From Ectocarpus siliculosus (Eukaryota > Sar > Phaeophyceae > Ectocarpales > Ectocarpaceae), in the NCBI GenBank assembly GCA_000310025.1, contig FN648555.1, positions 107,994 to 161,346 on the forward strand: a stretch of 53,353 nucleotides of DNA, in the 5' to 3' direction. The translations under genes were made by a program, and so were the position numbers. Position 1 is the stretch's first letter. The number at the start of each line of letters is the position of its first letter. This document shows, one piece after another, positions 8,001-37,649 of the stretch. The notes under the pieces were generated by a model that saw only the letters and a list, made by a program, of their open reading frames with translations, ran no database searches and was not told the origin of the DNA.

Positions 8001-11000
8001 GTTGGAAGGTTCTTCTCGTTTATCTCCCGTTCCAACAGCTCCCACATTTCCTCTCATCACACTGAAGCGCTGTACTCGCAAATTGTCGAGGCAACGCAAT
8101 GGACGTGGTAAGCGCCAAACGTGACCTCAAGCACTCCAAACAGCAAAGCGAAACTATATACGTTCCCTGGTCTTGGTGAAAACGCCGACTCACGAGGAGT
8201 GCTGGGAGGGCCTCTATGGCATCCTTCTTTTCCTGGCAGGCGACCTTGATCCAGCGGCGGGTTGTGGGGTTATAGGCCCAGCCGTCGGCGTAGCGGTCGT
8301 CCACCGTCTGGTACTTTGTGCCCTTGTACGGCTTGATCTCTCCTGTGGACGTCAAATGTGCAATGGCACCAAGGTTAGCCGAAGAGAAACGGATATGCGA
8401 AAATAATGCCTCACCTGATCTAGAAGAACGGTTAAGGCGACAAATTATATGGTAACTGGCACAGCAGTAGTGGGGTGTTTCTGCATGAAAAAAGCCGGAC
8501 AGCGACACACAAACCAAAACGAATATGGGTCTGTTCACATAGCTTTGCTTGGTGCCCTTATGTGAGGGGCTCAGTTCTTCCAGCATCATCTTTAATTTTA
8601 TTCGCATAGAAGAGGTGGTGGTAGCTGACAAGTGAACTGTTGTCTTTCTCTGTCAGAGCCACAGACGAGACACTTCATGACCAAACAGCCACAATCGCAA
8701 ACGTCAAACGTCAAGGAAACAGCGTCCTTCTGATCTCTCCACGCCAAAAGAAGAACACCCAGTTGTCCCGCGCAACAAGACTATCACCACCAGCGACGAC
8801 CAATTGACCACCACGTGCACCCCTGCCACCGCAGCCAACGAACAGCAGCAGCACCCAGACCGACCTCATAGCTCTTCCCACCAACGACAGCAGGTGCAGT
8901 AGCACAGGCATGAACGCTAGAGCCCACACGAAGATGATCAAAATGCAAGCGTCAACATCAGCAGTTTGTAACGCAAATAAAATACACCATGTTAGCATCA
9001 GCCAGGCATACCTGACGCGGTGGCCTCTTTGTACTCCTCCAGCGACAGGTATGCCTTCCCCTTCCCCGCATCGCCGCCGTTGGCCACCTTCTCCTTGCCC
9101 TCGTCGTCGACGCTTCCCTTGCCCGCGTCTATCTCAAGAGCCGTGAGCTGGCTAGCGAGCTGCTCAAGGACACGGAAAAGACAAACACAGATGCAGGCAG
9201 CATGACAGTCACACACGAGAACCGGGTAGCAGGCGGGGAGGATAATACATGCTCAGCATTCGAGTTACTTGACGTGATCCGTCTACACATCACAGCTTTC
9301 TGTGGGTAGTCCTGCATGTTTTCCGAGCCTGAAGGGTGGCAGCGGTTTTCACCTTATTATGTCCTTTTTTTGACGTGACGCTTCTACAACGCGACTCCGA
9401 TCTACGAGGTAGCACAGTACCCCAATGGCTGCAAAAGAACGCGGATAATAAAACCATCGATGCCAACCCACGCGGCCTTCGGGTGATCATGGATGCGACC
9501 TATGAAATCGAATACCAAAAGCTAATTGCGACCGCTGCCCGGTAGAAGCTGCTCTTACACCAGCAGCGAACACAATTCCTCGCACACCAAACGGGGCATG
9601 GCTACCTCGGCAATCTCGTCGTCTCGTTCCTGTTCCGGTGACATCAACGCCGTGGTAGCGCGAGCACCTGCGCTCGCGTCACGTCGTTTCTCAGCGCTAG
9701 GGGGAGGGCAGGACTTCCCGGCCCTCTGCTTCTGCCTGTCACGACCGCTCCCGCGTCGGTTGTTCTCTTCGTGTTCCCGGCTTCTTCCGTACCTCTCGCT
9801 TCCGTCGTTCGACCAACGGCCGGCGCCGTCATCCCTCGCCTGACGGCGGGAACCATCCTTGTGGTCGCCACCGCCGCTCGCGTAACGCCGGTCTTTGTCC
9901 CTGTCGTTGCGGCCGTCGCGACTGCAGTTGTTATCGCGGGAAGAGAAGCGTCGATCGTCTTTCTCTGGCGGCCGTTCGCCCGCACCAACGCGCCCGCCCG
10001 AGCCGTCGGAGCGACGGAAATCGTTTGCATCTCCCGACCGGCTCTCGCGTGGGTCCGTTCTCTCGGAGCTACGCTGGGCATCCCCGTACATCCTCAATTC
10101 GCTCTTGCTGTAAACGATTTTGGTTTGGGGTCTGGAAGTACCGCCGGTCTTCTTGGGGATGGTGTAGGAGTCTTGTCCTCGAGAGCTGCTCCCGCTATTT
10201 TTGGGGATCTTGTAGGCATCCTTGCTGCTGCTGCTGCTGCTGCCGACGGCGCCGGCGCGCTGTGACTTTGCTTTACGCGGATCGCGGGGTCTCGTCCCCA
10301 CCGCGGGCGTGTAATGTCCCTTGACCGAGGGCGTGTAGTGCCCCTCGACGCCTTCCTTCCGAGAAGGTGCTGCGCGTTGTTGGCGCGCCGGCAGCTTTTT
10401 CTTCCTCTGGCCGTCGGAATCGGCAGAGTTGCCGCTGAAGCTCTCTCCTCCCGAGTATCCCGCCGCTTTGCTGCTGTTGGCGCCGCTCTCCAGGTGCTGT
10501 TGCTGCGGTGACGCCGGCGATGCTGCTTCCTCCGTTCCTCCTCGAAATGGCAACATGACCGATGCCGGGGGGCCTGGAGGGCCCTGCCACCACTGGAGAG
10601 GTGGCGGTGACGGTAGCCAGTGCTCACCGGCAGTTTGCTGTGTTGGTGGAGGAGGCGGTGATGTAGAGTGGTATTCCGTACCCAGCTGACGCAGCGCCGG
10701 CGCTTCGAATGGTGGCTGCTGCTGCTGCTGCGGCGGCGGCGGTGGCGGTGGCGACATCGATTGACGCTGCAAAGCCTGCATGGCAGCCTCGGGGGAGGGG
10801 TAATCGGCAACGAGCTGAGGCAGTACGGGCGGGCCGGGTGGGGGCAAGGGAGCATCCACGGCGGCTTGGCCGTAAGCCCCGTTGAGTGATGTTGGGGCAA
10901 TCGCCTCCGCTCGAGGCAGCGGAGGGTACGGGGCCGGAGCCGGCGGGGTGGAGTAGTTGTAGCAAGGCTGGGCGAACTGCTGTGGGGGCAGCGGTAGACA

Positions 11001-11690
11001 GACAGCATCCAACGCTGCCGGGGCCGCCGGGGGAAGAGGTGGGTAGGGCGCGGGGCTGTTGGCGTTACCACTGCTGTAGTATTGCTGCTAAGGATGACAC
11101 AAACAACACGACAGAAGAGCGGACCGGCAAATGCAACAAAGGGAGAATTTCGGGATCGAGAAAAGCGCTGTAGGATATTGATTGGATGGACAAGCCTAGG
11201 CAAAACGGCAGCATTGGTGCGAGCGAGTAAAACTCCGCAAACAGGAACCCACGGCCACTTCAGTGTCTGCACATGTGTAGGCGGCATCTGCTCCTACTGC
11301 TGTGGTTGCGTGCTGCACATCAAAAGATACTCATTCTCACGTTGGGGCCTGAACCAATGGGAAGAGCACGCCTTGGTATGCTCACATGTACAACATGCGT
11401 ATATGTATCTGCTGTGCTCTTTCTCCCTACTGCTATGCGGGCATCGTGCAGCGTCTGCATCTACACATCAACCACGTTACCCCGTGAGACGAGTTTCCTT
11501 AATCCACCCACCTGAAACAGGACCCAACAACTAAACAGGCAACACACGCACAGACCGACCGCACCTTCCTGGAGTCGCCGTTGGCGTTTTGGAGAGGAGC
11601 CGAACTCAGGTTTGTTGTATCAGCGAGAGCGCCACCACTACAATGACCTTGGTAACCGCATGATTCCTGAGCGACATGTGCGGAATACAT
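5034..11690 (-). CDS. SWT1-like PIN-domain RNA endoribonuclease
   Basis: Multi-exon gene. Exons in transcript order: 11690-11565 (ATG at 11690), 11087-9606, 9159-9012, 8342-8194, 8050-7831, 7778-7679 (or from 7773), 7498-7299, 6885-6782, 6352-6253, 5186-5034 (TGA). Phases agree at every junction except around 8050-7773, where one base appears to be missing. The product is about 925 residues: a Pro/Gln-rich N-terminal half, a basic Arg/Asp/Ser region, a short linker with a Trp-rich patch (GWAYNPTTRRW), a Lys-rich helix and a C-terminal PIN domain. Length and layout resemble SWT1, a nuclear RNA quality-control endonuclease, but a C-terminal HEPN-like region after the PIN domain is not seen. The start codon faces the LRR gene across 343 bases. 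The PIN assignment is strong; orthology to SWT1 rather than another PIN family is inferred. Confidence 0.72.
5498..6231. repeat. Fold-back (inverted-repeat) element inside the last PIN-gene intron
   Basis: The segment 5498-5668 is closely matched by the reverse complement of 6231-6045, with a long near-identical core (for example GTGTGTGCGTGGGAGCCGCG). A second, shorter arm pair (about 5797-5823 against 6035-6000) continues the symmetry, so the left arm has roughly 120 extra bases. Both arms lie between exons 6352-6253 and 5186-5034, starting about 20 bases from the donor of the upstream exon. No transposase-coding frame lies between them, which suggests a non-autonomous element or an inverted duplication. 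Confidence 0.8.
5940..5959. repeat. Short interstitial telomere-like run
   Basis: One CCCTAAA unit followed by CCCTAA units lies in the centre of the fold-back element. It is too short to be a true telomere and may be chance or a scar of break repair. Confidence 0.45.
7900..7903 (-). other. Single-base frame break in exon 8050-7831 of the PIN gene
   Basis: From the exon start the frame is open and protein-like up to a four-base A run on the plus strand (T run in the mRNA). After it, the plausible coding frame (acidic, Lys/Arg-rich, leading to exon 7778-7679) is shifted by one. One extra base in the run would make the exon continuous and would fix its phase with the next exon. A very short intron is less likely because only a poor GT donor is available. 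Confidence 0.6.
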
Positions 11691-12033
11691 TTGGCCTGGT
11701 CGTCCAGACCTTTAGTAGAGAGGGAGGTGGTCGCCAACGTTGTTGACAAAGTGCAAGTGTGCAATCGGTCCGAAATGGCGCGAGTTTGGCGAGTTGCTGC
11801 GGGGCACCTCTGGAAAGGAACCCCTGGGGCAGGAAAGACGTCACGGAGCCTCTCAAAATCGAAGGAGATCTCGCCGCACCAACCAGTGCAACAGGCACAG
11901 CAGTGGAAGGTGGTCTCAACCCACTCTTTTCTCTCCTGCCGCCTTGCATGTAGCTGCTACTGATCGACTACAGCGGTCTCACCCGCATGTTTTGGTTGAT
12001 GATAACTTCACGGCCTCATCGCAGTCCCGTGAA
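11691..12033. promoter_or_regulatory. Presumed shared divergent promoter region
   Basis: This 343-base gap separates the proposed start codons of the minus-strand PIN gene (11690) and the plus-strand LRR/Sfi1-like gene (12034). The plus-strand frame is open backwards to about 11740, so part of the gap could be coding or a 5' UTR. No TATA box or other recognisable element stands out. The regulatory role is inferred only from the head-to-head layout. Confidence 0.4.
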
Positions 12034-15000
12034 ATGACCTCGGGCAAGCCGGCGGAGGAGCCAACGAACTCATATCTACGGCAATTTCTAACCCGGGGAG
12101 ACGGGAATCGGCAGGAGCAGCCGAAGCGGTCCGACCGCAGTAACACTAACGGCGACGGTAATATCAGCAACGAGAGTAAGGAGTACCGTGAGAGCAAGCG
12201 GGGCGGCGGCAACCATTGCCGTCCCCAACCTGACGATGAAAGTGATGATGAGGCGCGCGAACTCAGGTTACCAACGCCAAGATCCCCCCCTCAACGGCCT
12301 ACATATCAACCGCCGTCACCCCAGACCGAACTCGATCCGGGGTGCGTGATAGGCAGCGCCGCTCTCGACAGCGGAGACGGTCTAGAAAGAACAACGGTGC
12401 GTTATCCCAGCGCTGCTTCTTCGAAGCACAAAGATGGCGGCAGCGGCAGTGGTCAATGCACCCGAGCAGGGATCGGAGACCCTCCTCGGGGCCAAGAGAA
12501 GGACTTCATGGTCGATGGGGAAGATCTCTTGCGGCTAAAGAGCGTCGATGCGGTAGGACGCAGAGGTAACGCTACCTACAATGACACCAGGCACCAACAG
12601 CGGCAAACACACGCCAAAAGCCTGGCTTCCTCGTCGCTTGACCTTCACCACCGCCAAGGAGCAGGGTTGTCAACGCGCTCCGCTGGTGGACAGCAGCAGC
12701 ACCACCAGCACCGCAACGACCGAGGTAAGGGTGGTGAACATGCCCTGAGCGCCCAGGAATCAAGCACACTCTTCTGGGAGGAAGTTGATTCTCTGGACGC
12801 CAAAAGTAGTAGCGCGAACAACGACTGGGGGCAAAGGCTTGGCGGCGGTCGCGGTCGTGGCGTCGACCGGAACATCGGCGGTGAATCGATGGCAATACTG
12901 GGGGTCCACAACGGCCGCAGCCGAGGAGGAGGGCGGTCAAGGCGCGGAGGAAGAGGCAGTGGGGCAAGAGGACCACCAAAAAGCGGTGTTCGCCAGGCGG
13001 CTGCTTTTGCATCACCCGTAATCGGGGGTGGTACAAGTGTCAGGAAGAGACATCCTCGGGCGGATTTAACTTCGACAGAGTTGCCGCTCGGCCAAGTGCT
13101 GCGGACGGTGGGTGGGCTGGTTGGGGGCGAAGGGCTCAAAGTCTCTGCGGTGAGGTGATAAGTGCGCGTCCATTGCATTGTCGGCGAAACACGGTCAAAA
13201 GTGTGACTTATTCCGTTTCGGGGGTAGAACGCGTCGGTGTTTTTGCTATGCTGCCGTATTAGGTGCGATGCCTTGATTTTGCTTCTTAACGTTAGCCGAT
13301 GGAAGGGTTTGCACCGGTCCACCTTGGTGTAGCAGAGCGGGCAAAGTCAAACTTGCGAGTGGGCACAAAACTTACTTCATACAATGTGCACTGACGGTAG
13401 GTGGGAAAACACATCACCTCGCTAGAGGGCGTGCCCTCCGGCGTGTCCTCCCGAGCGACCCAGCTTTTCCTCAGCAACAACAGTCTGCGCTGGTTGCGAG
13501 GCGTTGAAGCCTTTTCGGGGGTGGTCTGCCTCTCCATCTCACACAACCTTGTGCGCCGGACGGAGGACCTCCACCCCCTCTCGCTTTTGGCTCACCTGGA
13601 GATGTTATCGCTGGAAGGCAACCCCGTGTGCGGTGCCGCCAACTACCGGGCGCATGTGGTCTCGCTTGCATCCGCGTGCCTCAAGACGCTGGACGGTAGA
13701 GAGGTCAGAGACATTACTGTGTGCTTGAAGATACGCATGGCGATATCGCGATGTTGGTTGACTTTAACTTGGGTAGCAGGCTTGTTTTGCTTTTGGTCCG
13801 GGGCCTTTGGTTCCCTTTATTTTACGTCGAGGTGCTCGATCGTCCAGAGGTAGGTACGAAGAGTGAGTAAAGTGCGACGCGGAGTTCCTGGGTGTTCGTG
13901 TAGTTTTTGGGTTCTACTACTCGTTTGTTTTTCTACTTGGACGATTACCGGCTGTAGGTGTTCGCTACTCTGATGGCGAAACACAAGCGTGCTGGTGCCC
14001 TCTCTTTCCCCCCCCCACCCGTTCCTCTCTTGATCATTCCAGCGCAACAATTTCGTTTCTGCGCTGTACGATGTTCTAGGTCATTGCTGGGGAGACGTCC
14101 GATGCTCCAGCCATCGTCGTTGCCGAAAGGTCCGCGACAAATAAAACGTCGAGAGAGTGCTGTCTCTGCCTGCTTCTTCACCACATGTCCGGGTTGCTGG
14201 AATGCCACGCCGAGCTCCGAGAGGCTTTGCTTGAGGCAGGCAGCGGTTGCAGCAGCACCGGCGGTGGCGGTATCGGCGGCGATCAGCTATCTTCAAGATT
14301 TCGCCGGGGAGGAAGGGTGTTCAACGGCCGGCGGGTGGCGTGGCGTCAACGTATGGCTGTAGCCATGCCCGTACACCACGTATGTGTGTTTGTCGCACCA
14401 AGCTACTTTTGCGTGCAACATGTTCTTTGTTGTCGACGGTTGTGATACGGTGCGGGTGGCATATGTGGCTTTTATTGAGGTTGTCGCTGGTCTTTGCATT
14501 CTTCTTGCGGGACGGGAGTGCATGCAGGCACTAGTAATACTCAGAGAAGGTTTCTCCTGCTGCCACTCGTACCGCTCGTGTTGCCCTAGATGCTAGCGGT
14601 GCTTCAGGCAGATAGCTGGCCCGTTTTCGACCAATCAGAGCTGGATGTGCTCGAGAGACAGATCCTCGAAGAGGCTGCAGAGGTGCTCGGTGAGTCAGTC
14701 GAACGAAAGTGTGCGTTGTGAAAAACCAGTCCGCCTTTCCGTCCAAGCCCCTATCTCAGATGCTTGCTGGGTTTTGCGGGAAGCACCGCGCCCTCCTTTT
14801 AATCGTCGTCTTGGCAACAGTGGATTTTTCGTTTGACCAACTCCATCTTCCGAATTTGGGACGCCGGGTATCTCAAAGCATACTCTCACCGGCGTCGTTG
14901 ACATTCCGACTGTGCGCGTGTGACATATTCCCGTGGAAACGGCATGGCGACCAAGCCGACGTTGTGAATAGCCGGCGGGCTGCGGGCCAGCGCACGAACG

Positions 15001-18000
15001 AGCTTTTGGAAAGCGCGGTAGCGACGCTCAATTCACCTGGCACTCGTATGTGGGTGCAGGTGCTAGGAGAGGTGAGGAGGGTCGGTGGGGGGGTAGAGGA
15101 AATCACTTGGTTGTCGAAGCAGGTCCTTGCTCCATTGGCAGGTATGCTACTGCTGGACCTGTCGCTCATACGTACCTTGCATTTCCCTTTTTGACCGACG
15201 AATATCTTGAGTTCTACCACGCACGAAGTATTAAGTTGGGGTATTGACCAGCAGTCATACTTGATGAGCACTGGAGAAACTGTTGACTGTTGTGATAGGC
15301 TGACGTAGGATTGTCATGTTACATGCTCTGTCCGCTTGCACGTAGAAAAACACCGCCGACTCGATCTTTGTGGCAGGTCCAGCGGCGAACTGAAGGCAAA
15401 GTGAGCGACGTTGTCTTGCGCTGCGAGAGTGTCCGTCGGCGGGAGGCGGAACGCTTTCGGCACGTGTCCGGGCAGACGAACACCTTCTTGCAAGACCTCG
15501 CGGCCGCCGTCGGCTGCAGCGACAATCAGTGGGCGGTGCCACCTTGTAAAGCAAGAGCAGTGCAGCGCACCACTGGCGCCAGCGCCGGTGGCGGCGCGCC
15601 GAGGAATACGAGGAATACAACTCCTTCTATGCCCCTGGGGGGGTCTAGACCATCGTCGTCGATATCGCTGCCTCAGCCAGCGGATAAGCCCCGAGTGAGG
15701 ATGCTCTCCAGCCCTGAACGTGGCCGGACGGTACGCACGACGCTTAGTCGCAGCTGTCCCGTGGGCATCGCTGGAACCGTCCCCGTTGCAGACACTGCTC
15801 AGTCACCGGAGGCGATGGCGGAGGAATCGATCGTCCTTGATGCCCCTAACCGTGCAACAGAGAACGGAGGACGAGGTATGGCCGGGGCTGGAAAACGGGA
15901 CCCACCGTCTCCGGGACATGTTGCTCGCGGGATTGAGGGGGAATTCGCCACCGGGGACAAGACCGAGGTACGTTTGGGAGAGGAGCGGATACAGGCTATG
16001 GGCTCGGATGGGCCAAGTCCGAATTTACTTGACCAGGAGGAACAACGACCTAGAGAACGATCTACAGTGCGCGTCACCACTTCAAGAACCTATTACTTTC
16101 CCCTGATCTCGTTTCTTCCTGCTTTGCGGCGTAACCCAACATCGACTGTATAGGTTTTGGTGTACTCTTTTTCACTGAGCACTGTTCATACGGTTAGATT
16201 CCTCAATTTATCGTTTTTTGAGCCTGAAGTTCTTTTCTCCAAGGTTATTCATTGGTGGCGCGTACTGAATTGAACAAAACTCCCGATCTTGCCGCCCAGG
16301 CACTTCGTAGTCGCTCTGCTTCGCCAGTCCTGCTCGGTGCTCAGTCCGAAGCTGGAGCGGTAGGGCAAGGCACCACGGTGGCGGCGGTGGAGCGGGTGCC
16401 AGAGGTTGCAGCGGTCGGAAGGGGTCAGAGCCTTAAATCGATAACAACCATGGCCTCCGCGGCAAAGGTTTTGCTAGCTAGAAGAGAAGACGGCGAGAGA
16501 CTGGGCGGCCCGTTATCCCTGTCCCCAACGCAGGCAGCTGCATTGCAAGACCCTTCCAAACAGTCAGCGGTGGCGGGGCGGAGAAATCCACCAACGGCGG
16601 AGGTTGATGATCTTGTGGACAGTAATAGTAACCTGTCCATTGGAAGAGGCGGAGATGACAAAGCAGAAACTCAATTGTCGAGATGGCGCGCCAGCAACAG
16701 GTTCGAGGGAAGACCAGACAGTGCTCCAAGAATTCTGAACGGGTCAAACACAAGAAGGAGACTGATTGTTGGACAAAACAGCACTGGAGAAAGCCCTGAA
16801 AGGAATGAAAGGAGATCAGAGTCCCGCAGAGTCTCTCCTGGTGGTGAGTCGGTGGAGCAGCCACCACAACCTGACGCTATCGCTTCTCCAGGCGTGTACA
16901 CCCTCGCCACGGCAGCAATCACACTCGTTGATGGCCGTCCCGCGACTGGGCAGCAACAGCTCTACACACCACAGCAAGGGGGCGTCCGATGGGGTGTTGG
17001 GACATTTGGGAGTGGTACGGTCGGGACCACAGCCGAACAAGGCGAGGATGGAGGTGCGGAGGGCGAGGTGCGCGCCGGAGGTCACCACGGGAGCACCTCC
17101 GAGGCGACAACGCGGCTCCTGCGGGAAGCTCTGCGGGTGAAGCGTGTGCTTGCCGAGATGGACAAGGCCGACGCTACCGGATCCGCTATTGACAACGGCC
17201 TCGGAGACGAGGATCCCGAGAAATTCCTCGCTACCCTCGGCCTTGTCGAGCTCAAGCCCTTGTCCGCGAGGCTCGTGGAAGCACTGGAACGCGCGCCTCG
17301 ACCCCTTCTAGGAGATCCCTCTGTTGCCGTGCCCGAGCCACGCACCACACGGGGGCTACGAGACCAGGTGCGTAATACAACGTGCTTGTGTGCGCTTTGC
17401 GTGGTCCTGTCGTAACTGTGCTGAAGGACCCAAGCACGAAGTACACTTTGTGAGGTGCCACCCGTTATCACCATATACGTCAAATACCCTTCCCAGGACG
17501 TGCATTGACCATGTTTTGGGAGAACGTGGGGCGAATTTTTACACCTCTGTATTCCGGAGTATAAAAAACAACCGGCCAAGGCGCGTGTCGGGCGTCTCTA
17601 TTCAATGCCGCCAGAGCCCGATCCATACCAACCGAAACGTATTCACTCATTTTTCTGGGCCGTTTCTTTCGACCAGCGCGAGTTAAAGCAATATACGTTT
17701 TGTGTTCCGGCGATACCAATAGGTGGCAGCTCTGGGCAAAGAGGTGGCCCAGCGAACGGAAGCGTGCGCCGAGGCGCGAAAGTTGCACGCGGCGCTGCGG
17801 AGGCAGGTCGAGGTCACGCGCCGGGCCCGCGCTAGAAACATGGACAGGGTGGACGTGACCTGCCGCACGCTGATCGCCAAGGCTGGGGGCGAGGTGCAGG
17901 TGAATGTCGAGGTTTGAATATTCTGTATATTGCAGACCATGCCCGCCTCCCGTCACCGCTTCATCTTTCCTTTCGTTATTTCGGAGGTGCACACTTCGAA

Positions 18001-21000
18001 ATTCTCCGGTATTCCGTATGGCTGAATGCATGAATTGGAGTGGAGTTCCCGGTGCGACAGTCGTATTGCAATACCGTGTATATATTGGTTGGCGATGCCA
18101 GCGTCTACGAGGTTTGTTCAAAATCGTTGTGGTCGTGAAGTTGTGGTGGTGGCGCGGGTGTTAAGAGTATGCCTGCGAGATCCAGGCAATATCTTCACAC
18201 AACATGGTTGACACGAATCTGACTTGAAATTGGCACGGGAGGAGGGGTCTCGTCGTGATGCCAGGCCCCTGAGTGGTTTGAGGGGAAGACGTCGGTCCCT
18301 TCTTCGCGTTGGGGGTAGGGCGTGCTTTCTTCTTGGACCAAGGTCGAACAAAGCTTCCGTTCAGGGCCCCCCGTGGATGGAAGGAAGACCATGTTTGCTG
18401 CTGTAGACAATCTTCACTCGCCACGCCAGCGCCTTCAGGGGCAAAGGACAAGATGTGCCTTGGCTCGGGTCTCACACGATGTCTCGAAGTCCACCCTGTA
18501 TGGCCAATACTTTGTCCAGGCGCTTACCAATGAAGACAGGACCAGGAACGTGCTTGCTGCTGACACGGTGTGATAGTTATCCCTGTGCGGTGTTCGTCCA
18601 TTGCCCTCACTGCTCCGCAGGTTCTCCATGAGTCCAGGCGCGTCGCGCACGAGGCAGAACGCTATCACGCGACCCTCGCCCGAATCCAGGTGTGCTAAGT
18701 GCCAAATGAGTTACAAAGTGTTTCGAAAGAACGTTTCGACGCGATTGAATGCCGAACAGAATCACTGACTTGCTGCTAAACCCGACGATGCATCTCGTAC
18801 TAGAGCACGTAGAGAAGGTACCGAGAAGCAATGAGACGGCGTACCCTGCCAGGTAACATGCACGGAAGGATTCTTATACTGGATGGTAGTGTTGGCAAGG
18901 TTGAGATTTTCCGTCAAAGGGTGCTTCAGTTGGTAAGAATGACAAAAAAAGAACACAACGAGATGGCGCTGTACGTACATATTTCTAAGTTCTTGACAGC
19001 GCTGTTTTGGAACGTACCCCTTTCCGGCTACCCTGTCCCCGTTGTTGTGTCTCCAGGAGCAAGTGGAGGCGACCACTGGCGAAACTCGCAAGATTGTCTC
19101 TACCAGCGAAGCCATTGCATGGGAACTCCGCGCAGAGATGGAGGGGCGCGGCGGGGAGCTCTCATGCCGCAAACGCGATGCCGAAGAGGGGCTGGCGGTG
19201 AGGCAGCTATGTACCATGTGTGAAGTCCTTTGATGATCTCACCAGCAGTTGTTTCGATATTTAGCTCGATGCATCTCGCGGGCATCGATTCATAGTCCTG
19301 CAAGAGTAAGGGGGTTCTGGAAGATGGGAGGCGTTTCATGTTGTTGAGTGGCGGTAAATCGTACAAATTGTTTGCAGTTGATCGGTCACCCTTCTTTCGA
19401 GCTCAGGTGTTGTCAAATAGTACCCATTCCGCGGGGTTGATTGTGTTTTCTTGTCGTGGTGAAATTTACTGGGCGCTTGGCTGAGCAAGCTACACACAGC
19501 AGTTATTTGCGTAGATTTCCTGTCGCTTGGGGTATGTTTTTCGCAAAGCGATTTCCAACGAGTTTTTTATAGGCCCTGGTCCTTCGGCTGTTTTCAACCT
19601 GTGGCCGTTCTCAAGGAAGTAGCGTGCTCGTTCTTCCTTGCCAATACCAGGTGTTTTGTTTCGATGCTAGCGCCTTTGTCCCCGCACGTATCTTGAAGCG
19701 AATGATGGCGATCGGCCTTATCGTCCCGCACGAACAACTCCCGAACAACAAAGCAAAACCAAATTCCACCCTTACCACCCATCAACCAACCCTCCTTCCC
19801 CAATCCCAAGGTTGAACATCCGTATCATCTACACAATGTATTTTACCAAGACGCACCGATACCTGACAACCCCCAATCCTAACTCAACCGAACAAGGATT
19901 GGGAGAGAGCGGCACAAAACGACCCAGACTTGCGAGCCCGCCGCCGGGCCTACGACTGCGAAGTTCTAGCTCTTCGGCACCGGATGGGTTGCGGCGGCGC
20001 CAACAACATCAGCCTCGCCTCCGCATTCCACCTCCTCCGCGCCCGCACAGCGCAGCAGCGGCGAGCTCGAGAGTGGTTCGCAAGGTCTACTGCCCGCCGC
20101 AACGCACTCCTTGTTCGCTCCGCTTTTACCGCCCTCGCTAGAGGAAGTCGGTGCAGGGCAGCGACGGCGGCGGTGGCCGCCGCTCGCTGTCGGAGGGGCC
20201 TGGCCGCTTGGAAACGGGCGGCCACGTTAGCCCGGAAGATCCGGACGTTGTGCTGGCTGAGGGAGCGGGCGGCTGCCGTGAAGGCCTTACAGGGGTGGCG
20301 ACAACGGTGTGTGAAGGCGGTGTATTTGGCGGGCGGCAGCGCCGGGGGTGAGGATGGGAGGTGGGCGGCTGGGCGAGAAGAGAGGGAGGATCTAGAGTGG
20401 AGGCTAGAGCTGTTTCGAGAACGCAGGGCCAAGAGGGTTGTACTTCAGGCATGGCGGGCTGCGGCGCAGACGTCGGCGGTGGTAACGGTGATGCAAGGGG
20501 AGGCGAAATGTGGCTGGGGGCGCGAAGTGGGGCGACGTGGCTGTGCGGCCATTCAAGATGAGGTGGCTGCGTGTTCAGGATGGGGCGCCAGGCTTCGCAC
20601 TGCCGAGGTAGAGAGGAAACTTAAAAAGCTTGCTTCCGATGTGTGTGAGACAGTTTAGTCAGTATGAGCAACGTCGGGCGCTCTCACGACACGAGCTCTT
20701 TTAAGACCTTGCGTTCTCAATGTCAGCACTTTTGCTGTGAAGAACCGGCAATATTTTCTTTTTCGTCCTCCGTGGGTGTGTCATCTAGGCTTGGCATCAT
20801 GGAACATTTCACACCCTGTACAACTATAACGAAACAACTAAACTAATGGTGGGGAAAGGGTTCAACTACCCGTAGTTGAACGGAATCAACTAGTTGCACA
20901 AGATTATGAGCCAGTACAGTAGTTGATTGGAATCAGCTAGTCACCCGAGATTCTGAGCCAATAGTTGATTGGAATCAACTAGTTGCACAAGATTTGAGCC

Positions 21001-24000
21001 GGTAGTTGAACGGAATCAACTAGTTGCACAAGACTTGAGCCAGTAGTTGATTGGCCAAACAAACACAACTATCTTGAAGTAGCTGTACAGGGTGTGGCAC
21101 ATTTGAATGAATGAAATGATATTCACGAAGGCGAAAAACGATTCCAAAGCAGTTGTTTTCGAGGATTGGGTTCTCCATGCTTACTTCTACAATCGACACC
21201 CACCCCAGTTCACTATCGCTTCTTCGCTCGCACAATGGTCTCTGACAGTTCCAAATAATTAACATCCTACGACACTGCTGGATGCACTGCATGACGTACC
21301 CTTCGCCCCATGCAACGGAATCAACGCAAGCAGGCCCTCGGGCGTCGGCATCGGTTTGAGACTCAAATCGGCTCAGCCTTCCGTTGGTGGCGGCGACATC
21401 GGCAGTGCAAGGTGCTGGCCAGAACGGCAGGTCAACGGCGAGCGATCCGGCGCTGGAGACACCGGGTGAACGATATTCGTTCGTCACACGAGGCTACTGC
21501 TGAGGCTCGGGGCAGGTTAGTAGGAGAGCTCCGGATGGTTCGAGTATGGGGATTACTGCAGTACAGTGTCAGCGAAAAGACGGAAGGCCGTGTTGGGGTG
21601 TTAATTGCTTCCTAAGATGGGTTGTGCAAGGTCTAGACACAGGGGTGGGCTGGGCCAACTTCACAGCAAGCATCAGAAACGTACGCAGCCTCCGCTCCCC
21701 TTCTCTCCTCGTAGGAGCAGCCTCGACGTCAGTTGAGAGACCTTGGACTTGAAGCATTGTATACACTAGAGCCAGCTTCCCTGTTGTGGTCTGAATCCAT
21801 ACCGAGGCTCATTTTCGTACGGATTGGAGTGGATGGGGCCTCCTGCGCCGGGCAGGTGTCCTCGCCTGGTATGTCACCCCATGGTGGAAGGGAACCTCTA
21901 GTGTGTTGTCGCCCAGCGCAGAATTGGTACCCGATGTACAAACCCTCAGTCGGGTGGGTGGGATGGTCTCAATAATTTCGTGATCAAAGCTCCTCACTTG
22001 GGTTTTGGAGCGAAAATACCCTCATTGCGATTACAAACCCCAAGACATCCGATTTGATCTGTGGATCAATTAATTGTTCGGATTTATCCAGAAGTGGTGT
22101 CACGTATGCTGCGCTGAGAGTTGGACCTTTTAGCGTTTCTGGCATCACGCGCCGAAGAAAACGATGCAACACTGGTACTCGCTGTGCGCTGTATGTGGTC
22201 CAATCCAATGCTGCACAGTTCACAACAAGATACGCCTGTGATAGTTTTGTTTGATGCCTTGGTTAAGATCCGAGACGCCGTTGAGAGAGACACCGCTTGC
22301 TCACACGAGAAGATAGACCTTACCCACGCCCTGTTCACCGCTCCAAACTTCGGAACCCCGCCCTTGCCTTGGTATTACCTTCATCAATAAACCCCAACAA
22401 CATCATAGCTATGTGCTTTCTCTTGGGAGGCGGGTGCTGGCCGCTTGGTCCTCCGCCGCGGCTACTCGTGTCCGTCGACGTACTGGCGCGGCCTCGCTGG
22501 CGTCAGCACTAGCGTTCAGCACAAAGCGGAGAAGCTTCAGACAGTGGGCCTTCCAGGCCGCCGCGGCCGCTCGCGAAGCCGACAACACAGTAGTCGCTTT
22601 GGGGCACTATGGCGACCGATGTCTCCGCGATCACCTGCGGGCGTGGTCGGCTTTCGCGAGGGAGAGGTGCGCGTTGCGGCGATGCGTCGGGCTCCTACTG
22701 CGCGGCCGGCGTGTGTGCTTGACGGCGGCGGGGCTGCGTCTCTGGCGGCGACAAACGGCGAAGGCTAGGGACGCAAACCTACGGGAGTGTAGAATAATGG
22801 TGAGGGTAAATATTGGCGTGAGAGGTTGAGGTTGGAGCATGCTCATACTCAAGGGTCCTCCTCACGGACCTAGTAGGGAGGTCGCCCTAGTTGCCTAGTT
22901 TCTCAGGTAGCTGGCAGCTGTGCCAGACGTGTGCTAGTAGAAGATCGGGATAATAGTAGCTTAACGCGACTTCAGTCTTTTCTGGGGTGCCATCAAGTGT
23001 TTTTTATTTAAGCCAACGCTATTGCAGGTTTTGAGCGCGTACTCACTTTCCCGACTTTGCCTTCGGCGGAAGGGCTGAATCCTCCCTGTTGACATGGGTG
23101 TGGGGGGTTGTGTGCCCGTAAGTGAAACATATCGTTGCTTCTGTTTTGTAGCTGCTTGCGAAGAACGTCTCATGGCCATCGTCATTGATCAGGCAAAAAC
23201 AGTTTTATACACGTGACGCTGCCGTTGCTCTGGCCTCGATGATGGGCTCTGAAGTAATATCCGATACCTTGTTTTCACCCCTGCCAATATTCCCTGCCCC
23301 ATCTCTGTCGCCGATCGCTTGTTGTCGTTGGGCTTCTTTTAAAGGCTTGGACGGCGGCAGCTGCCCGACGGCGCCGATTCGCTGCCCTCTCCGTATGCTT
23401 TTCTGCATGGACGTCCACCCGCCGCCGCGTGGCGGCAATCCACTCCCTCACGAGACGGGCCGCAGCACGACGGCGGCGCCTCGCCCTCGCAGTGGGCTTT
23501 CGCGCGTTCAGTCTTTCAGGCCGCCGGGCAGCAACCGCCACAGCAGCGGCCACTGCGGAAAGAAGCCACATCAGCCGTGGTGAAGACACGACTAGGTACA
23601 ACAATGGCTACCGGCCGAGAGGAGACATGGGCGTTGTTGTTGAGGAGGCTACTGCTCCTGTACAAACGGCTATCGCCGCGAAGGTTGCGCTGGAGGGGAA
23701 GGTAAGCTTGCTCCGGGCAGGCCTTGCGCAGGAAAAAGCCCGTGCGTTAGAGTGGCACGCAGCCGCATGCGGGATGGCCAAGGAGGTCGCCCGCTCCGAA
23801 CGGGAGCGAGCGCGGTACGCCAAGGTCCTTCGTCAACAGGTGAAGGAGCAGCAGCAAAAGCCGCCGCCGCCGCTCTCTTCCCCGCCAAACATGATCACGG
23901 GCGCCGAAGGGAAAGGTCCGGCCTTGGTTGAACCCTCGTTGCCGTGGCATGATGGGTTCATGACTGTGCAGCGTGAAGGTGAGGAAGGTGGAGATGGGGA

Positions 24001-26831
24001 AGTTGCGGCAGCAGTCGTCGAAGAACCCTTTCGTTCCCGGGGGAGGGGGAAGATGGGCCCGACGAAGCTCACAGAAAAGGAGAGCTTGCTGATCATCAAG
24101 CTTCAAGCGGAGACTCGGGAACTGCGGCAAAGAGAGGCGGTGGCGGCGAAGCAGGAGGAACGGCTGAGATTGGAGGCAGCGCGGAAGGCAGCCGCGACCG
24201 CAGAGTCGCTCGAAAGTGCTTTGGCGGAGCGGAACCGGCTGAAGGCGCAGGCAGAGCAGCACGAGGTGCACTAGTTTGAGAACTACCTGGGTACAATATT
24301 TTTGCAAGTAGCATGGGTGGTCTCCGTGTACGCGATTCCAACCGGTGGGGCGTCCATTATCTCGGTACCGCATGCATAGTTTGTCTGCTCAGCGTGGGAT
24401 GTTGGAAGAGTACATACCGCTTCGGATTTTTCGTCCACGACCGCGCGCGGTGCCTTACCGCAGACGAAGGTCAATTTACATCGAACAACTTTGTTCACTC
24501 GTCTACTCCGTGCGTTCTTTGCGGATGCGCCCCCGTTTTTCAAGGTTCTCTTCGCCCAGCTGGACTCGGAAGCTCAGCAGGCGGCCGCGCAAGCTGCTGC
24601 CCTCTCGGACCGGCTCGCGGGAGCCGAGCAAGACCTTGGCTTCGAAGCCACCCGCAACACACAGGAGCTGCGTGAGAGGAACGAGGGCAACGCCCGCCTT
24701 CGAGCAGCGGCTACCGCCGCCGAGGAACGCATCGCTATCGCCGAAAGCACCCTGCGGCGCAAAGGGCTGGAGATCGAGGAGTTACGATCGAAATGCGCGA
24801 AGGCAGGCCTGGATATCGGTGGCCGGGGTAAAGGGGGCCGCCAGGGCCGCGGCGGTAGGGCGAGCGATACAGCGGGGTTAGAATTTCGAATTTTTGCTGC
24901 CTCGGCGGACGCTCGGTCTGCGCTTGAGAGGTGCACCGTCGCTGCCGACGAGAGGCGCACTGCTGCGGGGTCTGTGCTTGCAGAAGCCTTGCGCGTGGCC
25001 GGATCGGAGGCTGATACAATCAAGTCCAACGAGGCAGAATTTGACTGCACTAGCCACGAAGGTAATCATTTCTGTGCGACCCTGAGGATGTGTGTGGAGT
25101 CAGGCAAGATCCTTGTCTTCGGAAGGTGTTGAAACGTGTCCTGGTGAGTATTCATATGTACCGTCAGCCCCCTTATATATGTGGTAAATGCGCCATAGCC
25201 AGTAGCATCGTTGAGAACACGAGAGGAGATACCTTGGATTACGTTGCGGGTATGCACTCTTTTATTGTTCAGCCACTCGGTGAACTTCTGAGTACATCGC
25301 ATGCACAGGTGTTGAAACGTGCCCTGGTGAGTATTCATATGTACCGTCGGCCCCCTTATATATGTGGTAAATGCGCCATAGCCAGTAGCATCGTTGAGAA
25401 CACGAGAGGAGATACCTTGGATTACGTTGCGGGTATGCACTCTTTTATGTTCAGCCACTCGGTGAACTTCTGAGTACATTACACGCACGGGTATCGCCGC
25501 TCGCCAGGCATACTGGTGTATGCCTACCCAAACAATTCCCGAATGTACGTGGCATGGTCGATAAAACCCGAGCAAGGTCATGCGTCATACACACCCACAC
25601 ACCCTTTGTGATACTGTAGCCGTCGAAGCTTACCCTTGCTTTCAATGCCAACATCGGTGCAGGAGGAGTGGCGGCGGCCCGACGGATTGCGGCAGAAAGC
25701 GTGGCCGACGAACGACGTGAAGTGGCGGATCTTGCGTTGCGGGAGGCGGAGGCCAAGCTACGCAACTCCGCCGACCTCAGCCTGCGCGCCAGTCTCGACC
25801 ACCGACCATTAGCAAACCCAAGGTCTTTGTTCGAGGAAGGCGCAACTACAACCCCCAGTTCCAAGGTCAATAGCCCTGTGCCTGGGACTGGTGATCCCGC
25901 TCCTGACAGACCCGAAAACCGAAAGGGAAACCCCAATCTCAACGGGAACTTCAGAGAGGAGGCCGCCACTGAGCAAGAGCACCCGATGGAACCACAAGGT
26001 GCATCTCAGCCGGCGCGTAACAAGGACGGTGAGCTAGCTAGGACTGGCGAAACGAACTTCTTGAATTCCTCATCTTGTCCTCCCTTCTCCAGTTTGCCGA
26101 GCTGGGGGCACGAAAGCGACAACGAGAGCGGCAGCCACGCCGAGGGCATTGGGGAAGCAGGCAGGTGTCCTGATCCGGATGTACGAAACGAACAAGGCTT
26201 GACGACTGACACCGATGGTAGGCAACATCAGCAGCAGGAGCCAGCCCCTAAGGACGGCTTGCGAGAGTTGAAACGGGAGATTTCCGACCTTGAAGGGAAG
26301 ATTTTGGGACGCCTTGGTGGTAGCGGTGGTGGCCATGATGACAGACTGACCGAGACGTATCCTTCCGGAGGTCGCGAAAGGAATGGAAATGCTGTCATAG
26401 CAAACTTCCTGGAGAACTCAGCCCGTGGCATGACATCCCGGCATGGTCAGCGCCAGCAGCAGCAGCAGCGGCCCCCACGTAGTCGAAAAGAAGGCTCTCC
26501 CTCTACGATGGTCCGTCGAAGCGTATGCTCGAGGCCGTCATTTTCGACATCTGTGAGGGCAACACGTCGCGGGCGGGAAACAAAAGTGTCGCCTGCTGGG
26601 CGCACAAGGACTGACCGCGATCCGCACGGCGTGGAACGTACAAGGCGTCCCCAAAAGACGGCAAGATCGATCGAAGCCACCAGCTCTTGCCCAGACCGTG
26701 TTCGCCTTAGCTGGGATAGGGTGTCCGCCATCTCTTCGGCGGAAACATCAGCATCTGGCCGCAGCGGGGAAAGTAGACGAGGCGATTTAAGACGGACCGG
26801 AAGCCGTTCTAACAGTTTTAGGGCGCGGTGA
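12034..26831 (+). CDS. Large LRR/coiled-coil protein with Sfi1-like repeats
   Basis: Proposed exons: 12034-13149, 13401-13703, 14080 to about 14316/14350 (frame uncertain), 14590-14689, 14956-15071, 15377-15967, 16300-17367, 17723-17899, 18621-18689, 19057-19197, 19897-20607, 21331-21515, 22409-22799, 23345-24265, 24545-25061, 25663-26831 (TGA). Reading phase matches at every junction tested except around the third exon. The product is about 2,600 residues: a disordered Gly/Ser/Gln/Arg-rich N-terminus (about 370), LRRs (about 100), a mixed disordered and helical region, coiled coils, a Trp-repeat block like Sfi1, Ala/Glu-rich coiled coil and a basic Ser/Arg tail. LRR plus coiled coil resembles centriolin/LRRCC1-type centrosomal proteins; Sfi1-type repeats bind centrin. 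A centriole or basal-body role is inferred. The ATG at 12034 is the first in frame; an upstream exon is possible. Confidence 0.7.
13401..13703 (+). other. Leucine-rich-repeat exon of the large gene
   Basis: Entered through the acceptor ACGGTAG at 13400 and left at a GTCAGA donor. It encodes about 101 residues of SDS22-like LRRs: ATQLFLSNNSL, then VVCLSISHNLV, then LEMLSLEGNPV, followed by a cap that ends in LKTLDGRE. That cap is typical of the last LRR in ciliary and centrosomal LRR proteins. The upstream exon ends at GCG before GTGAGG (13150), both in phase 0. Confidence 0.8.
19573..19650 (+). other. Possible extra 78-base exon of the large gene
   Basis: A T-rich acceptor (TTTTTTATAG) is followed by 26 open codons and a GT donor after CCAG. 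It would insert in phase 0 between exons 19057-19197 and 19897-20607 without breaking the frame. The encoded peptide is hydrophobic and unlike the surrounding coiled coil, so it may be chance or an alternative exon. Confidence 0.25.
19897..23588 (+). other. Block of Sfi1-like Trp repeats (centrin-binding type)
   Basis: Spread over exons 19897-20607, 21331-21515, 22409-22799 and the start of 23345-24265. Helical Arg/Ala-rich segments carry a hydrophobic-x-x-Trp-basic core at about 25-35 residue spacing: LAAWKRAA, LQGWRQRC, LQAWRAAA, FRWWRRH, IRRWRHRV, LAAWSSAA, FRQWAFQ, LRAWSAFA, LRLWRRQ, KAWTAAAA and FSAWTST. This matches the Sfi1 repeat pattern known to bind centrin along an extended helix. 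All intron phases between these exons agree (0, then 2+1, then 0). The block is flanked on both sides by coiled coil of the same gene. Confidence 0.65.
20861..21054. repeat. Intronic minisatellite built from AGTTGA/TCAACT palindromes
   Basis: Four and a bit copies of a 41-47-base unit start at 20872, 20919, 20960, 21002 and 21043. Each contains GTAGTTGA, an inner GGAATCAACTAGTTG and GAGCC. The unit is itself palindromic: TAGTTGATT and AATCAACTA flank GG, and the array opens with a perfect hairpin (TTCAACTAC, CC, GTAGTTGAA). It lies in the intron between exons 19897-20607 and 21331-21515 of the large gene. Confidence 0.85.
25125..25491. repeat. Near-identical 184-base tandem duplication in an intron
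   Basis: The copy at 25125-25308 is repeated at 25309-25491 with only a few substitutions and one single-base deletion. It lies in the intron between exons 24545-25061 and 25663-26831 of the large gene. The duplication creates a long antisense open frame that should not be taken as a gene. Confidence 0.9.
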
Positions 26832-32643: not shown

Positions 32644-35600
32644 CTAGCCCGTATTTGTGTCGGCGCTCTCGCGTACAAGTTCTAATATACAGTACTCGGG
32701 CACCAAATGTCTTGAGGCCACGCCAGGCAGTTCGACGACCCTGGGCTGGGGCTCTGAAACCTTTACGAAAGGCCTGCCCCACCTCGAACAAACTCGGGTT
32801 GACTGGTGCCCTATTCCAGTCAACTGAGCTAATTGCAACGGGTCTAAACCCTGAGTAAGCTTTACTTGGGTTTGTCGACATGAGGATCTGAGATTCGAAC
32901 GGGCATCCTCGACCACGCTGATACGCATGCAATAGCGCGTGGTCGAAGGTGATGAACTAGCTCCGGGTACCCGTTCCATATACCCTTTCACGCTCTGCCC
33001 AAGCCCTGCAATACATCGCAGGGGTACCGCCCTGGTTTCCCCCCCGTTCAATACATCGGGCACATCATACTCCCGTTCCCTCCCTGGTACTTGAACGATG
33101 TCATATATCCATACCATGGTGTCCTTACTGACGAACATGCCATCCCTCGACGATCTTGCAGAAAAATCGCTAGGAGCCTTTCGCCCGATGATCACAGGAA
33201 CCACGTCCTGGCCGAAATATTCACAAGGGTTGACTCTCAGAAGAGCTACAGAGCCATATACGAGGGAAGCCTGCATTGCGCTAAACATGACTTCCATCTG
33301 CTCGTCTTTGGAGCTGAGCTCGTCATCGCCTCTCGTCCTCCGCGACCACTCAGCGGGTGCCTCCGTGATGCCCTTACGGAAGAGTCGACAATTCTCCGGC
33401 TCCTTCTTCCTGCACGAACCACACCTGTGCAGTATGGCCAAGTTAGAAATACGCCAGTGTTATCAGGAGTGGCCTAAGTATACAAAATACTCCGTATATA
33501 GCATGACGCATATGCGTACACGTTCTGCTGATCGTAAACTTGGGTTACGAGAATATTGATGAGAGCGATGGAGAGTTAGTCCCCGACCCTATAGCGCTAT
33601 AGAGTCGACGAAAAACACCTAATATTGAAATTGAATAAGCAGTCGTGAGTACCTCGGACCGAGCAGGCACTGCATGCATCGAACTAGGCCATTGCCATGC
33701 CCCCTCGAAAGGTGTAGCATGAAACAGGAGAGTAATACTCTGGAAACATAATACTCTAGGCTGGAAGTTGGTTGTTTCGTTTTTGCTCCGTTTTTGCTCA
33801 TCATCTGACCGATAAAAATGACGGCTCTCAAACGTTGTTCTTCCTCCCTCTTCCACCCCCCCCCCCTCCCGCCAACCAGGGTACACACCGGCATGAAAGC
33901 GTGTAGGTTGCCAGGACACCCGGAGTGTCTGTTGCTGTCGTCTTGCTGATGCTTTGACAGCCGGAGACGGGAATTGCGTTGGCCTCAGATCGGGCCGCGG
34001 CGCGGAAGGCCTCGGGAATATCGCCTTGTCGAACGAAGAGGTACTTTCTTCCAAGAAGCGTGTTCTTCTTCTTTGTGAGGAGGAACGTCTTCCTGCTCTC
34101 AGCACCGTCGTCCCCTTCCACCACCTACGATCACAATGAAAACAGGACACCAGCGTTTGGCCATGTAGCAAACATTAGGTGATATGGTCGAGGCTCAAAA
34201 TGGTTAGTTTCGCCATGGGTGGGTAGAAGACAGGACGCATGTTGATGAAAGATGTCGTGGCGTTTCGGTCTCAGGTTGCGACTCCAACGTATTTACAGGC
34301 TATTCATGAAAAGACCAACGATATCTGAACAACCAAGGTCGACCTATCATCGGGAATGGGTCTATCTTTCCCGGTTGGGGGCAGTTGATGGTCGCACACC
34401 TTTGTCACCAGAAGCTGCTGCCCTCCTCGGCTGTGGCTCTTGTCTTCGTAGAAGCGATCAGCCTCGTCTGGAGAAGCCTCCTGCAGCAAGAAGGAGAATT
34501 CCTTCGCCAGCAGCTCGCAAAGATGTTCCGGGTTTCGGACGACCCACGACCCGTTCATGACGTTCGTTCTCTCTGCCAACTTCGTTATAGCTCCCTCTGA
34601 GTCCGAATTGCTCTTCCCATGACACGAGCCGAAGTAGTGGTGCTCAACAACAAGACGCATGTCGGTGGCATTCCCGTCGGAGTCGCGAATCATCACACCG
34701 CTTTGGGCAACCCAGCCAAAGTGAAATCTACACTTGAACTGCTTGGCACAGTTGTCCGTGAAGATTATGGCTTTGGTCATCGGGGCGGCCCCGACTTTCC
34801 GCAACAGGCCAGGGACATGGACACTTAGCAACTGATTCATGACGTACTGCACCCACACGTTGTCTTGGGTCCTGTCATCGCTGAGGACCTGGAAAGAGTA
34901 GCACCAAACTCGCCCTCTCATCTTGAAGTAGATAGGGGCGGGGAAAATGGTCACACTCTCGTGCTGCCAGTGTTGGGACTGAACTTCGTCCTGCTCGCTC
35001 AGTTGTAGCTGTTCCTGGAAGTCCACGACGAACACGACCTGGCCCTCTTCCAACGTTGCTAGAGTCTCGTTGAATGTACTTCTCTGGTGGTGGAATTGTC
35101 TTCGATGCTTTCTGTAGACACCCTGAATCTCCCGGACCTCTTCAAAGAACTCGTCGACCGTGCCTCTCTTGACAACAACCCCCTGCTCGATAGGGGGGAA
35201 CAGGTAACGAGACACACACGGAATGTGTACGAGTCGGGCCACAATGAAGAATCAACAGCGTTGGTGAGTTGACGTTGCGTAAACTTAGTCCCGAAAACAA
35301 TATCATTGGCGTGGCCGTTAGCGCATGGGAATATTTGTTGGCAACACATTCAACGATTGGTGTACTTGCTAACGCTATCAACTCGAACGTGGTGTATGCC
35401 TCTGCACCGATCTGTAGAAAGATTCAAAGCGCCGATCTATAGCAACGCCCGATCGGGACGAACGGCCGATCTGGACTAACGGATCGGTGCGTCGTGCCGC
35501 CCAGCGTTCCAGGTTAACTCATGCCACAGTATTATTCCAAATGTCTGGCCTAAGATAGTGCCGCTGACACACTTGTTTTCACCTTCTTCGGTCTTGGTCT

Positions 35601-37649
35601 GCCCGCGCCCCCTGAGTCGTCGTCGCTCTCTCCGTCGCCGCCCGCATTTGCCCCTTTCCTACGGCTAGGCCCCACTGCACGCCCCGCTTCATCTACCGTG
35701 TCGAACATACTCCACTCGACGGTCCCACCCGACGTTCGTCCTGCAGGATGGATGGTCGAGGAAGAGGTAGAAGCGGGCCCCAAGTCCCGGTCGATACCCC
35801 CTCTATTCCGAGGGCAACCAAAGAAACGGTCCTGCCTTTCCTTGCACCGCGGGCAATTCCCCGATACGCAAACCGATGAGTGTGCACTGATGGCCTTTCC
35901 GTTGCCGGTAGCTGTGTAAAGGAAGATTTTGTCGCACATGAGTTTGTCGCTTAACTTGCCCATGCTGGAGACCTCCTTGGGCGAGGAATACGGCAGGAAT
36001 TCCTTACAGCCCCCTGCCGAGGAGCACAGGTCGCAAGTGCACGAGCAGGCAGCTCCCGTTGTTTCGCCGTGGTGGAGCGTCGGCCACATCTTGACAAGGG
36101 AAACCGTGGCTAGCTTCGCCTTGTAACAATGCACACAAAGGCAGGAGCGAGGTGACTGTTCCACTACGTAGAAGGGTATGATGTCCTCGAATGACTTCTT
36201 GGAGATCGACCCCACTTCGACATGGCCCTGTTCGAACTGTCCATAAAGTACGGCACACGCGGGTGGGTGATGGGACCTCTTGTTAAATGTCTTTGGCATT
36301 CGAGATGGCGAGATAGTCTATATTGACATTGGCAAAGCACGACGCCCTTGATGTAGCAAGGATTTACAATGGTGTATCTATTCATTGGTCACGATAGCTT
36401 CAGCGGATGAACGGATAAGTAAGACTCGTTCTCAGGAGTAGGCTCCACCCAAAAGCAGCGCAAACAGCGTGGAAGGTAAGAAAGATTGACGCTGATTGCT
36501 GCCAAGGCATACCGGATCGTGTAGTTGGTACCAACGCATAAAAGCTTCCTCTTCTTCGCACTTACCGCTGCCTGGAGATCTTCCATGCAAGAGTTGTAGA
36601 GCTGTAGTTGGGTCCCCATCATGTAGGAAATTCCGTGTGTTTGGCACAGCTCGGGGCGCACACAAACGAGGGAGTTATCTGCGTCCGACCGGATATGGTT
36701 CCCCTTCGCGCGGTCGTGCTTCGTCTTCGTTTCGCACGGTGACGGCTGTGTGCGCTCCTCGATGCTTTCCCTAACCCTGGCCATCGCGAACGGGTAAAGG
36801 TCCTCCAGGTTGTCCGATCTTTGTTTTCGTTTGCCCGCCCTGCGCGCGACATCGGCAAAAGCAGATAGCAATCGTATCGAGAAAGCGAGGCCAAATACAA
36901 CCCTTTTCTAAAGAATGGACATTGCTTATGTACTTCGTCTGTGCACCTTAATCGTAGAAAAACCACCGTGGCTATGCATCCTTCCACAATAAATAAAAAT
37001 ACAAACTAAAAAAGCAATGACGAGGGCGTATCTAAGGTTTATCACGGTTAACCGACGCAAGCTGCGTGGCCAATGTACACATGGTGAATGGGATTATTCA
37101 ATAGTGGAAACATACACGAACTTGCCTACGATCACAAAAAAAGTGGATGCCCGGATAATGTTTGAAGTAGACTTACATTTTGCCGAAATCGTTGTTCTTT
37201 AGCGCCTCCTCTCGTCGTTCCCTGGCCTTCTTGTACGTCTTCTCTTTGAGGGTTCCTCCTAGGAAGGACTTGGCGGCCTCCAAGGTAACACGGGGAGAGC
37301 CGATGATGCCCACCATTGTTCTCCGTAGCGAATACCCTCCCGCACTTGCAACGACGCTCGACCCGCTCACGATTGACCACACGTCGCGCACGGCCTGCAC
37401 GACGGCGTGGTGTTCGTTCTTTTTTGCCTTGCACTCGTCGTGAACAACTTGTCGGCATATCTCGTGGGTCATGACGCCCTTGTAGGCGTCTTTTTGTGCT
37501 TGTTCGAAGGACATCCCAAACGTATCCGCATGGCTCCTTGCACTTGAGTCGATGTTTTCCTTGATGGCTTTCACAAACCGGCACTTTCTTGTGGATTCGG
37601 TGTTCTTCCTGTTCGAATGGCAAAACGAACATGAAGGCGAAAATCGCAT
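32644..37649 (-). CDS. Intron-containing DDE-type transposase-like gene
   Basis: Exons in transcript order: 37649-37177 (ATG), 36839-36566, 36278-35583, 35182-34400, 34124-33889, 33424 to about 32644. Donors include GTAAGT twice, and phases agree at all five junctions (2+1, 0, 0, 0, 2+1). Exon 1 has a Cys/His cluster; exon 3 is Cys-rich (CLCVHC, CSCTCDLC, CPRC) with an acidic nuclear-type tail. Exon 4 carries the core: VVFVVDFQEQ, then IIFTDNCAKQFK, then HGKSNSDSEGAITK, consistent with the three acidic residues of an RNase-H-fold DDE transposase. Exon 6 opens with CGSCRKKEPENC. Related Cys-rich plus DF/TD-C-QFK/HGK proteins are widespread uncharacterised transposon-type genes; I cannot name the superfamily. 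About 1,080 residues if exon 6 runs to its stop. No frame break was seen, so it could be intact. Confidence 0.7.
32777..32945 (-). other. Weak tRNA-derived (SINE-like) signals
   Basis: On the minus strand a box-A-like TAGCTCAGTTGA is followed about 35 bases later by a box-B-like GTTCGAGGT. A second box-B-like GTTCGAATC lies at 32900-32892 next to a hairpin (GACCACGC and GCGTGGTC). No cloverleaf folds convincingly: the T stem at the second site does not pair. The segment overlaps the 3' part of the last transposase exon, whose true end is therefore uncertain. Confidence 0.25.

Follow-up and report, generated by a model that had tools for sequence, protein, structure and literature searches.

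Sfi1 proteins carry repeats with a period of 33 residues and the motif Ax7LLx3F/Lx2WK/R, as set out in the accessible parts of two reports (PMC5112337, PMC9406199). In the Sfi1 triad, Trp (position 1) and position 4 are critical and position 8 is minor, according to the available portion of the second of these (PMC9406199). Other scaffolds of centrioles and flagella combine LRRs with coiled coils, and the following descriptions come from the accessible parts of the papers concerned. Centriolin (CNTRL), of 2,325 residues, has LRRs at its N-terminus and several coiled coils after them (PMC10731774). LRRCC1 and its Chlamydomonas counterpart Vfl1p, centriole proteins, contain an LRR, disordered regions and a long coiled coil (PMC8983040), and TbLRRP1, with LRRs and a coiled coil, belongs to the flagellum-associated hook complex (PMC4695855). 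Centrin fibres and LRR/coiled-coil centriole proteins have so far been known separately. No protein with both an LRR and Sfi1 repeats was found in the literature searched, which was seen in part and took in few subscription papers.

The locus described here lies in a window of 53,353 nucleotides from Ectocarpus siliculosus, the whole stretch of DNA that was analysed. It appears to be a large gene of a flagellate-type eukaryote, and its sequence suggests that it probably encodes a long scaffold with an LRR cap, several coiled coils and a series of Sfi1-like Trp repeats. The name Sfi1 is used in the sense of 'works like', as the repeats suggest, and does not claim membership of the family.

Exon structure of the candidate gene

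A manual model was built from splice signals and open frames, with some exon borders taken from a gene finder. It places 17 exons with GT-AG borders on the + strand from 12034 to 26831; joined in phase, they code for 2,653 residues and close with a stop codon. This agrees with the sequence-only reading, which had proposed at least 16 exons and about 2,600 residues, and the joined frame runs in phase without an internal stop. The exons are as follows.

Exon 1, 12034..13149, + strand: residues 1-372, low-complexity, disordered-looking N-terminus
Exon 2, 13401..13703, + strand: residues 373-473, LRR and LRR cap
Exon 3, 14080..14379, + strand: residues 474-573, last part of the LRR match, plus heptad-rich 496-532
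Exon 4, 14590..14689, + strand: partly heptad-rich
Exon 5, 14956..15071, + strand: partly heptad-rich, acceptor uncertain (AAG)
Exon 6, 15377..15967, + strand: residues 646-842
Exon 7, 16300..17367, + strand: residues 843-1198
Exon 8, 17723..17899, + strand: coiled-coil-like, part of segment 1190-1306
Exon 9, 18621..18689, + strand: coiled-coil-like
Exon 10, 19057..19197, + strand: first half coiled-coil-like
Exon 11, 19897..20607, + strand: residues 1328-1564, where the Trp block begins; AAG acceptor, uncertain
Exon 12, 21331..21515, + strand: to residue 1625, Trp repeats W1584 and W1606, phase-2 end, acceptor uncertain (AAG)
Exon 13, 22409..22799, + strand: residues 1626-1756, with W1639, W1672, W1705 and W1738 in exact 33-residue steps
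Exon 14, 23152..23253, + strand: residues 1757-1790
Exon 15, 23345..24265, + strand: residues 1791-2097, last Trp repeat W1812, coiled-coil-like 1896-1962 and from 2030 onward, AAG acceptor
Exon 16, 24560..25061, + strand: residues 2098-2264, coiled-coil-like
Exon 17, 25663..26831, + strand: residues 2265-2653 and the stop, short coiled-coil-like start, disordered-looking C-terminus

The open frame that holds exon 1 spans 11719-13158, and its first ATG is at 12034. The chosen frame has the top coding score of the six in 12 of the 17 exons, the others being exons 2 (the LRR exon), 3, 9, 12 and 14; exon 14 is the weakest, with a coding score below 0. Such values would be expected if the gene were decaying or if some exons were wrong and the architecture an artefact of hand annotation. 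We regard this as very improbable: the open frames are long, in-frame stops are absent from the interior of all 17 exons, and at the DNA level exon 11 showed no second copy in the genome. The shorter protein of the gene finder, described below, counts on the side of an artefact.

Four of the 16 acceptors read AAG (exons 5, 11, 12 and 15). Two repeats lie in the introns. One is a 41-base minisatellite at 20872-21050, with about 4 copies and a palindromic AACTAGTT core, in the intron that separates exon 11 from exon 12. The other is a 183-base tandem duplication (98% matches) at 25124-25479 within the last intron, from which the two open frames listed there probably arise as spurious calls.

Several regions outside the gene were also noted. 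On the opposite strand, a Pro/Gln-rich open frame (510 aa), part of which is rich in Arg, Asp and Ser, adjoins the gene at 9558-11087 (-); it has no Pfam match at E 0.01. A series of long open frames at 32647-37665 (-) probably represents exons of one or more genes, and six of these frames, compared with Pfam, gave no match at E 0.01. A tandem array of 55/110-base units occupies 38118-38368.

One gene or several

Little weight can be placed on phase agreement across the junctions, since GT..AG and phase guided the selection of splice sites in the manual model. The sequence-only reading had argued from phase match to a single gene; the junctions are indeed in phase, but the argument loses force for this reason. 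The same selection leaves room for neighbouring genes wrongly joined, two or more in number, with an LRR/coiled-coil gene at 12-19 kb and a Trp-repeat/coiled-coil gene at about 20-27 kb. Further features consistent with separate genes are the long gaps 19198-19896, 20608-21330 and 21516-22408, within which stops occur in all three frames, and the AAG acceptor of exon 11, preceded by a stretch poor in any clear pyrimidine run.

The gene finder, which was run before the manual model was made, bears on this point. Its codon usage came from 11 open frames in other parts of the window, none of them a proven gene, its splice weights were set by hand, and it was allowed to split the region. At both of the two gene penalties tried, it favoured a single gene at 12034-26831, with the start and stop of the manual model, although with other exons in the middle. 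All 16 gaps of the manual model measure 91-893 bases and have a G+C of 0.45-0.53, which also argues against a division. A 33-residue step between Trp residues spans the exon 12/13 junction, yet it links only Trp exons to each other. Taken together, we consider wrongly joined neighbours unlikely, though worth keeping in mind, and the region 12034-26831 likely to be one gene.

The gene finder's protein has 9 exons and 1,908 aa. Seven of the nine exons (1, 6, 7, 8, 10, 16 and 17) are common to both models, an agreement that is not independent because some manual borders came from the gene finder. Exons 2-5, 9 and 12-14 are omitted, a piece of exon 11 (20142-20347) is read in a different frame, and exon 15 is begun late, with one border in common. 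The resulting protein lacks the LRR exon and all ten Trp repeats. As an arbiter of exon choice the program was judged too weak, and the manual model was retained.

LRR and heptad-rich segments

Residues 376-487 match Pfam PF14580 (LRR_9) at E 9e-6 with 25.8 bits, which is below the curated cut-off of 30.5. A sequence search of the PDB with this region matched 54 distinct sequences with an E of at most 0.1; almost all carry the names of known LRR proteins, dynein light chain 1 among them. SDS22 was the best row (E 6.4e-9), as the sum of weak stretches, and U2A' (E 1.1e-7) was the best with one stretch that passes alone. The region thus resembles, at the level of sequence, a short LRR of SDS22/U2A' type plus cap. 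The LRR cap proposed near residue 400 would correspond to 376-487, which we read as an LRR from this PDB similarity and from the PF14580 match, sub-cut-off as it is. A single-sequence structure model of exon 2 (mean pLDDT 45.9) was all helix and not an LRR fold. Elsewhere in the organism's own genome, the LRR had one weak match (E 0.01).

Heptad-rich segments were scored on a home-made scale, with a 99% threshold derived from three shuffles. Before the Trp block they lie at 496-532, 588-629, 640-667, 1104-1141 and 1190-1306, and after it at 1896-1962, 2030-2186, 2202-2264 and 2267-2308. Five further segments fall within the block. On this scale, the coiled coil expected on both sides of the Trp block was recovered, with more inside it. 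The order of an N-terminal LRR (376-487) followed by long heptad-rich regions (588-1306 and 1896-2308, with gaps) corresponds to the Centriolin/LRRCC1 plan in architecture only. Heptad register was also considered as support for the exon joins. With flanks scored apart, it carried on as first choice at 3 of the 16 junctions (1|2, 7|8 and 9|10), which is about chance, and at junction 15|16 continuation ranked fourth; it was of no help.

The Trp-rich block and its 33-residue period

Of the 34 Trp in the protein, 20 fall within the 548 residues of the block (1328-1875), and the remaining 2,105 residues contain 14. For 19 of the block Trp the flank within the block is long enough to be scored. Ten of them have [FLI] at -3 (mean 4.4 in shuffles, P 0.005), and W1329, the twentieth and outside this count, also has Leu at -3. 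Hydrophobic residues at both -3 and -7 accompany three of the 19 (shuffle mean 1.0, P 0.07). The triad Leu at -7 of the Sfi1 motif is not clearly enriched in the array. K/R follows at +1 in seven of the 20 block Trp.

W1606, W1639, W1672, W1705 and W1738 are separated by four consecutive steps of exactly 33 residues. The first of these steps spans the exon 12/13 junction and hence depends on the model; the choice of that junction followed splice site and phase and took no account of spacing. In 5,000 shuffles, which preserve composition only, no run of four constant steps arose for any step length between 20 and 45, 33 included. The pair count at the best distance among 20-45 is by itself unremarkable (P 0.07). 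The top self-similarity lag over residues 1585-1771 is again 33 (lags 15 to 59), a value to which the Trp themselves contribute. The ten repeats have little in common at positions other than Trp and -3 (combined z 1.7). The single-sequence structure model of exon 11 is of low confidence (mean pLDDT 49.5).

About a dozen Trp-centred Sfi1-like repeats had been proposed for the middle of the protein. Ten or eleven can be counted, and the strict period of 33 is confined to five Trp of the array. As far as its sequence goes, the array fits Sfi1 in part of the period and in the two main positions, not in the full motif.

Profile searches

The sequence-only reading had named the lack of an Sfi1 profile match on the Trp block as a result that would refute it, and this is what was found: Pfam PF08457 (Sfi1) gave no match up to E 10 with the spliced block. 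A PF08457 search of the genome (189 Mb, 492 contigs) scored one candidate and returned no match. We take this profile to be built on fungal proteins. Its silence is weak evidence and does not show absence, because it also matched none of 14 control genomes, and no known non-fungal Sfi1 sequence served as a positive control.

No solved Sfi1 was matched in a PDB sequence search with the Trp block and with a repeat profile. The ten repeats came out gapped when aligned as 33-mers, so 23-mers were used instead; the 23-mer profile retrieved nothing from the PDB and one unrelated weak match from Pfam (E 0.19, 1 of 10 members). An NCBIfam search gave no match.

These results leave some weight for another reading of the single gene, in which the Trp block would be a degenerate helical scaffold that binds no centrin and might instead bind calmodulin or light chains, or only pack on itself. 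The unmatched Sfi1 profile, the lack of clear enrichment at -7 and the slight likeness of the repeats beyond two positions are all consistent with it. The exact 33-residue period with [FLI]xxW and the centrin-like genes of the same genome speak against it, and on balance it seems unlikely.

Genome context

Six EF-hand loci were fetched, two of which gave peptides that were compared with the PDB. For both, caltractin/centrin was best (E 6.7e-33 and 6e-29), above the calmodulins, among the best 60 matches listed. The genome also has three matches to SAS-6_N at two loci and four to Radial_spoke at one locus. By these similarities, the organism has the expected centrin-like partner and parts of the centriole/flagellum toolkit. 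PAP2, which might mark brown algae, had 0 matches in this genome; the genome's size and G+C would suit a brown alga.

Searched against its own genome, the Trp block gave a single weak match outside the gene, at locus L006 (E 0.08, one stop inside), which was taken as chance. Apart from this match and the weak one to the LRR, a second copy of the gene did not appear. No relatives of exon 13 were found in viral contigs, nor of exon 11 in prokaryote genome contigs.

Proposed role

The comparisons above support a three-part architecture in one putative, frame-compatible gene. That this 17-exon gene encodes a centrin-binding scaffold of the basal body or centrosome, with a predicted LRR docking end, is a serious possibility, to which we would give a little under an even chance. 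The Trp block would then form an Sfi1-like long helix on which centrins could bind one per repeat in a calcium-responsive manner. The flanking coiled coils might dimerise or bundle this helix, and the LRR may attach one of its ends to a basal-body or centrosome partner, thereby tethering a centrin filament to that organelle.

More doubtful, though still conceivable, is the wider proposal that an LRR docking cap fused to an Sfi1-type centrin array constitutes a protein class of this lineage, tying a calcium-responsive filament to a basal-body site. If the scaffold reading is true, one protein would directly connect a calcium-sensitive fibre with the centriole or basal body, and through it the linkage of basal bodies in Ectocarpus siliculosus could be tested.

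Comparison with known scaffold proteins

If the scaffold reading holds, the combination of an LRR with an Sfi1-like array would be new within the literature searched, while its constituent parts are known. TbLRRP1 likewise has LRRs plus a coiled coil, but at 79 kDa it has seven LRRs and one coiled coil, and Sfi1-type repeats are unlisted in the accessible part of its description (PMC4695855). The order of LRR, disordered region and long coiled coil recalls LRRCC1/Vfl1p as described; the available portion of that report does not mention a Trp array (PMC8983040). Centriolin shares the N-terminal LRR before coiled coils, a likeness of architecture, and Sfi1-type repeats go unmentioned in the part of its source that was accessible (PMC10731774).

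From Sfi1 proteins, the candidate differs in having an LRR, in lacking an Sfi1 profile match and in the triad Leu at -7, which is mostly absent here. Its repeats are also fewer, ten or eleven as against 21 in yeast Sfi1 and 31-32 in Toxoplasma, by the figures in the accessible parts of the two reports (PMC9406199, PMC5112337). With the Sfi1/Sfr proteins, TgSFI1 included, it has in common Trp-centred repeats, in part of the array a period of 33, at ten of 19 Trp a hydrophobic residue at -3, and the great length of the protein.
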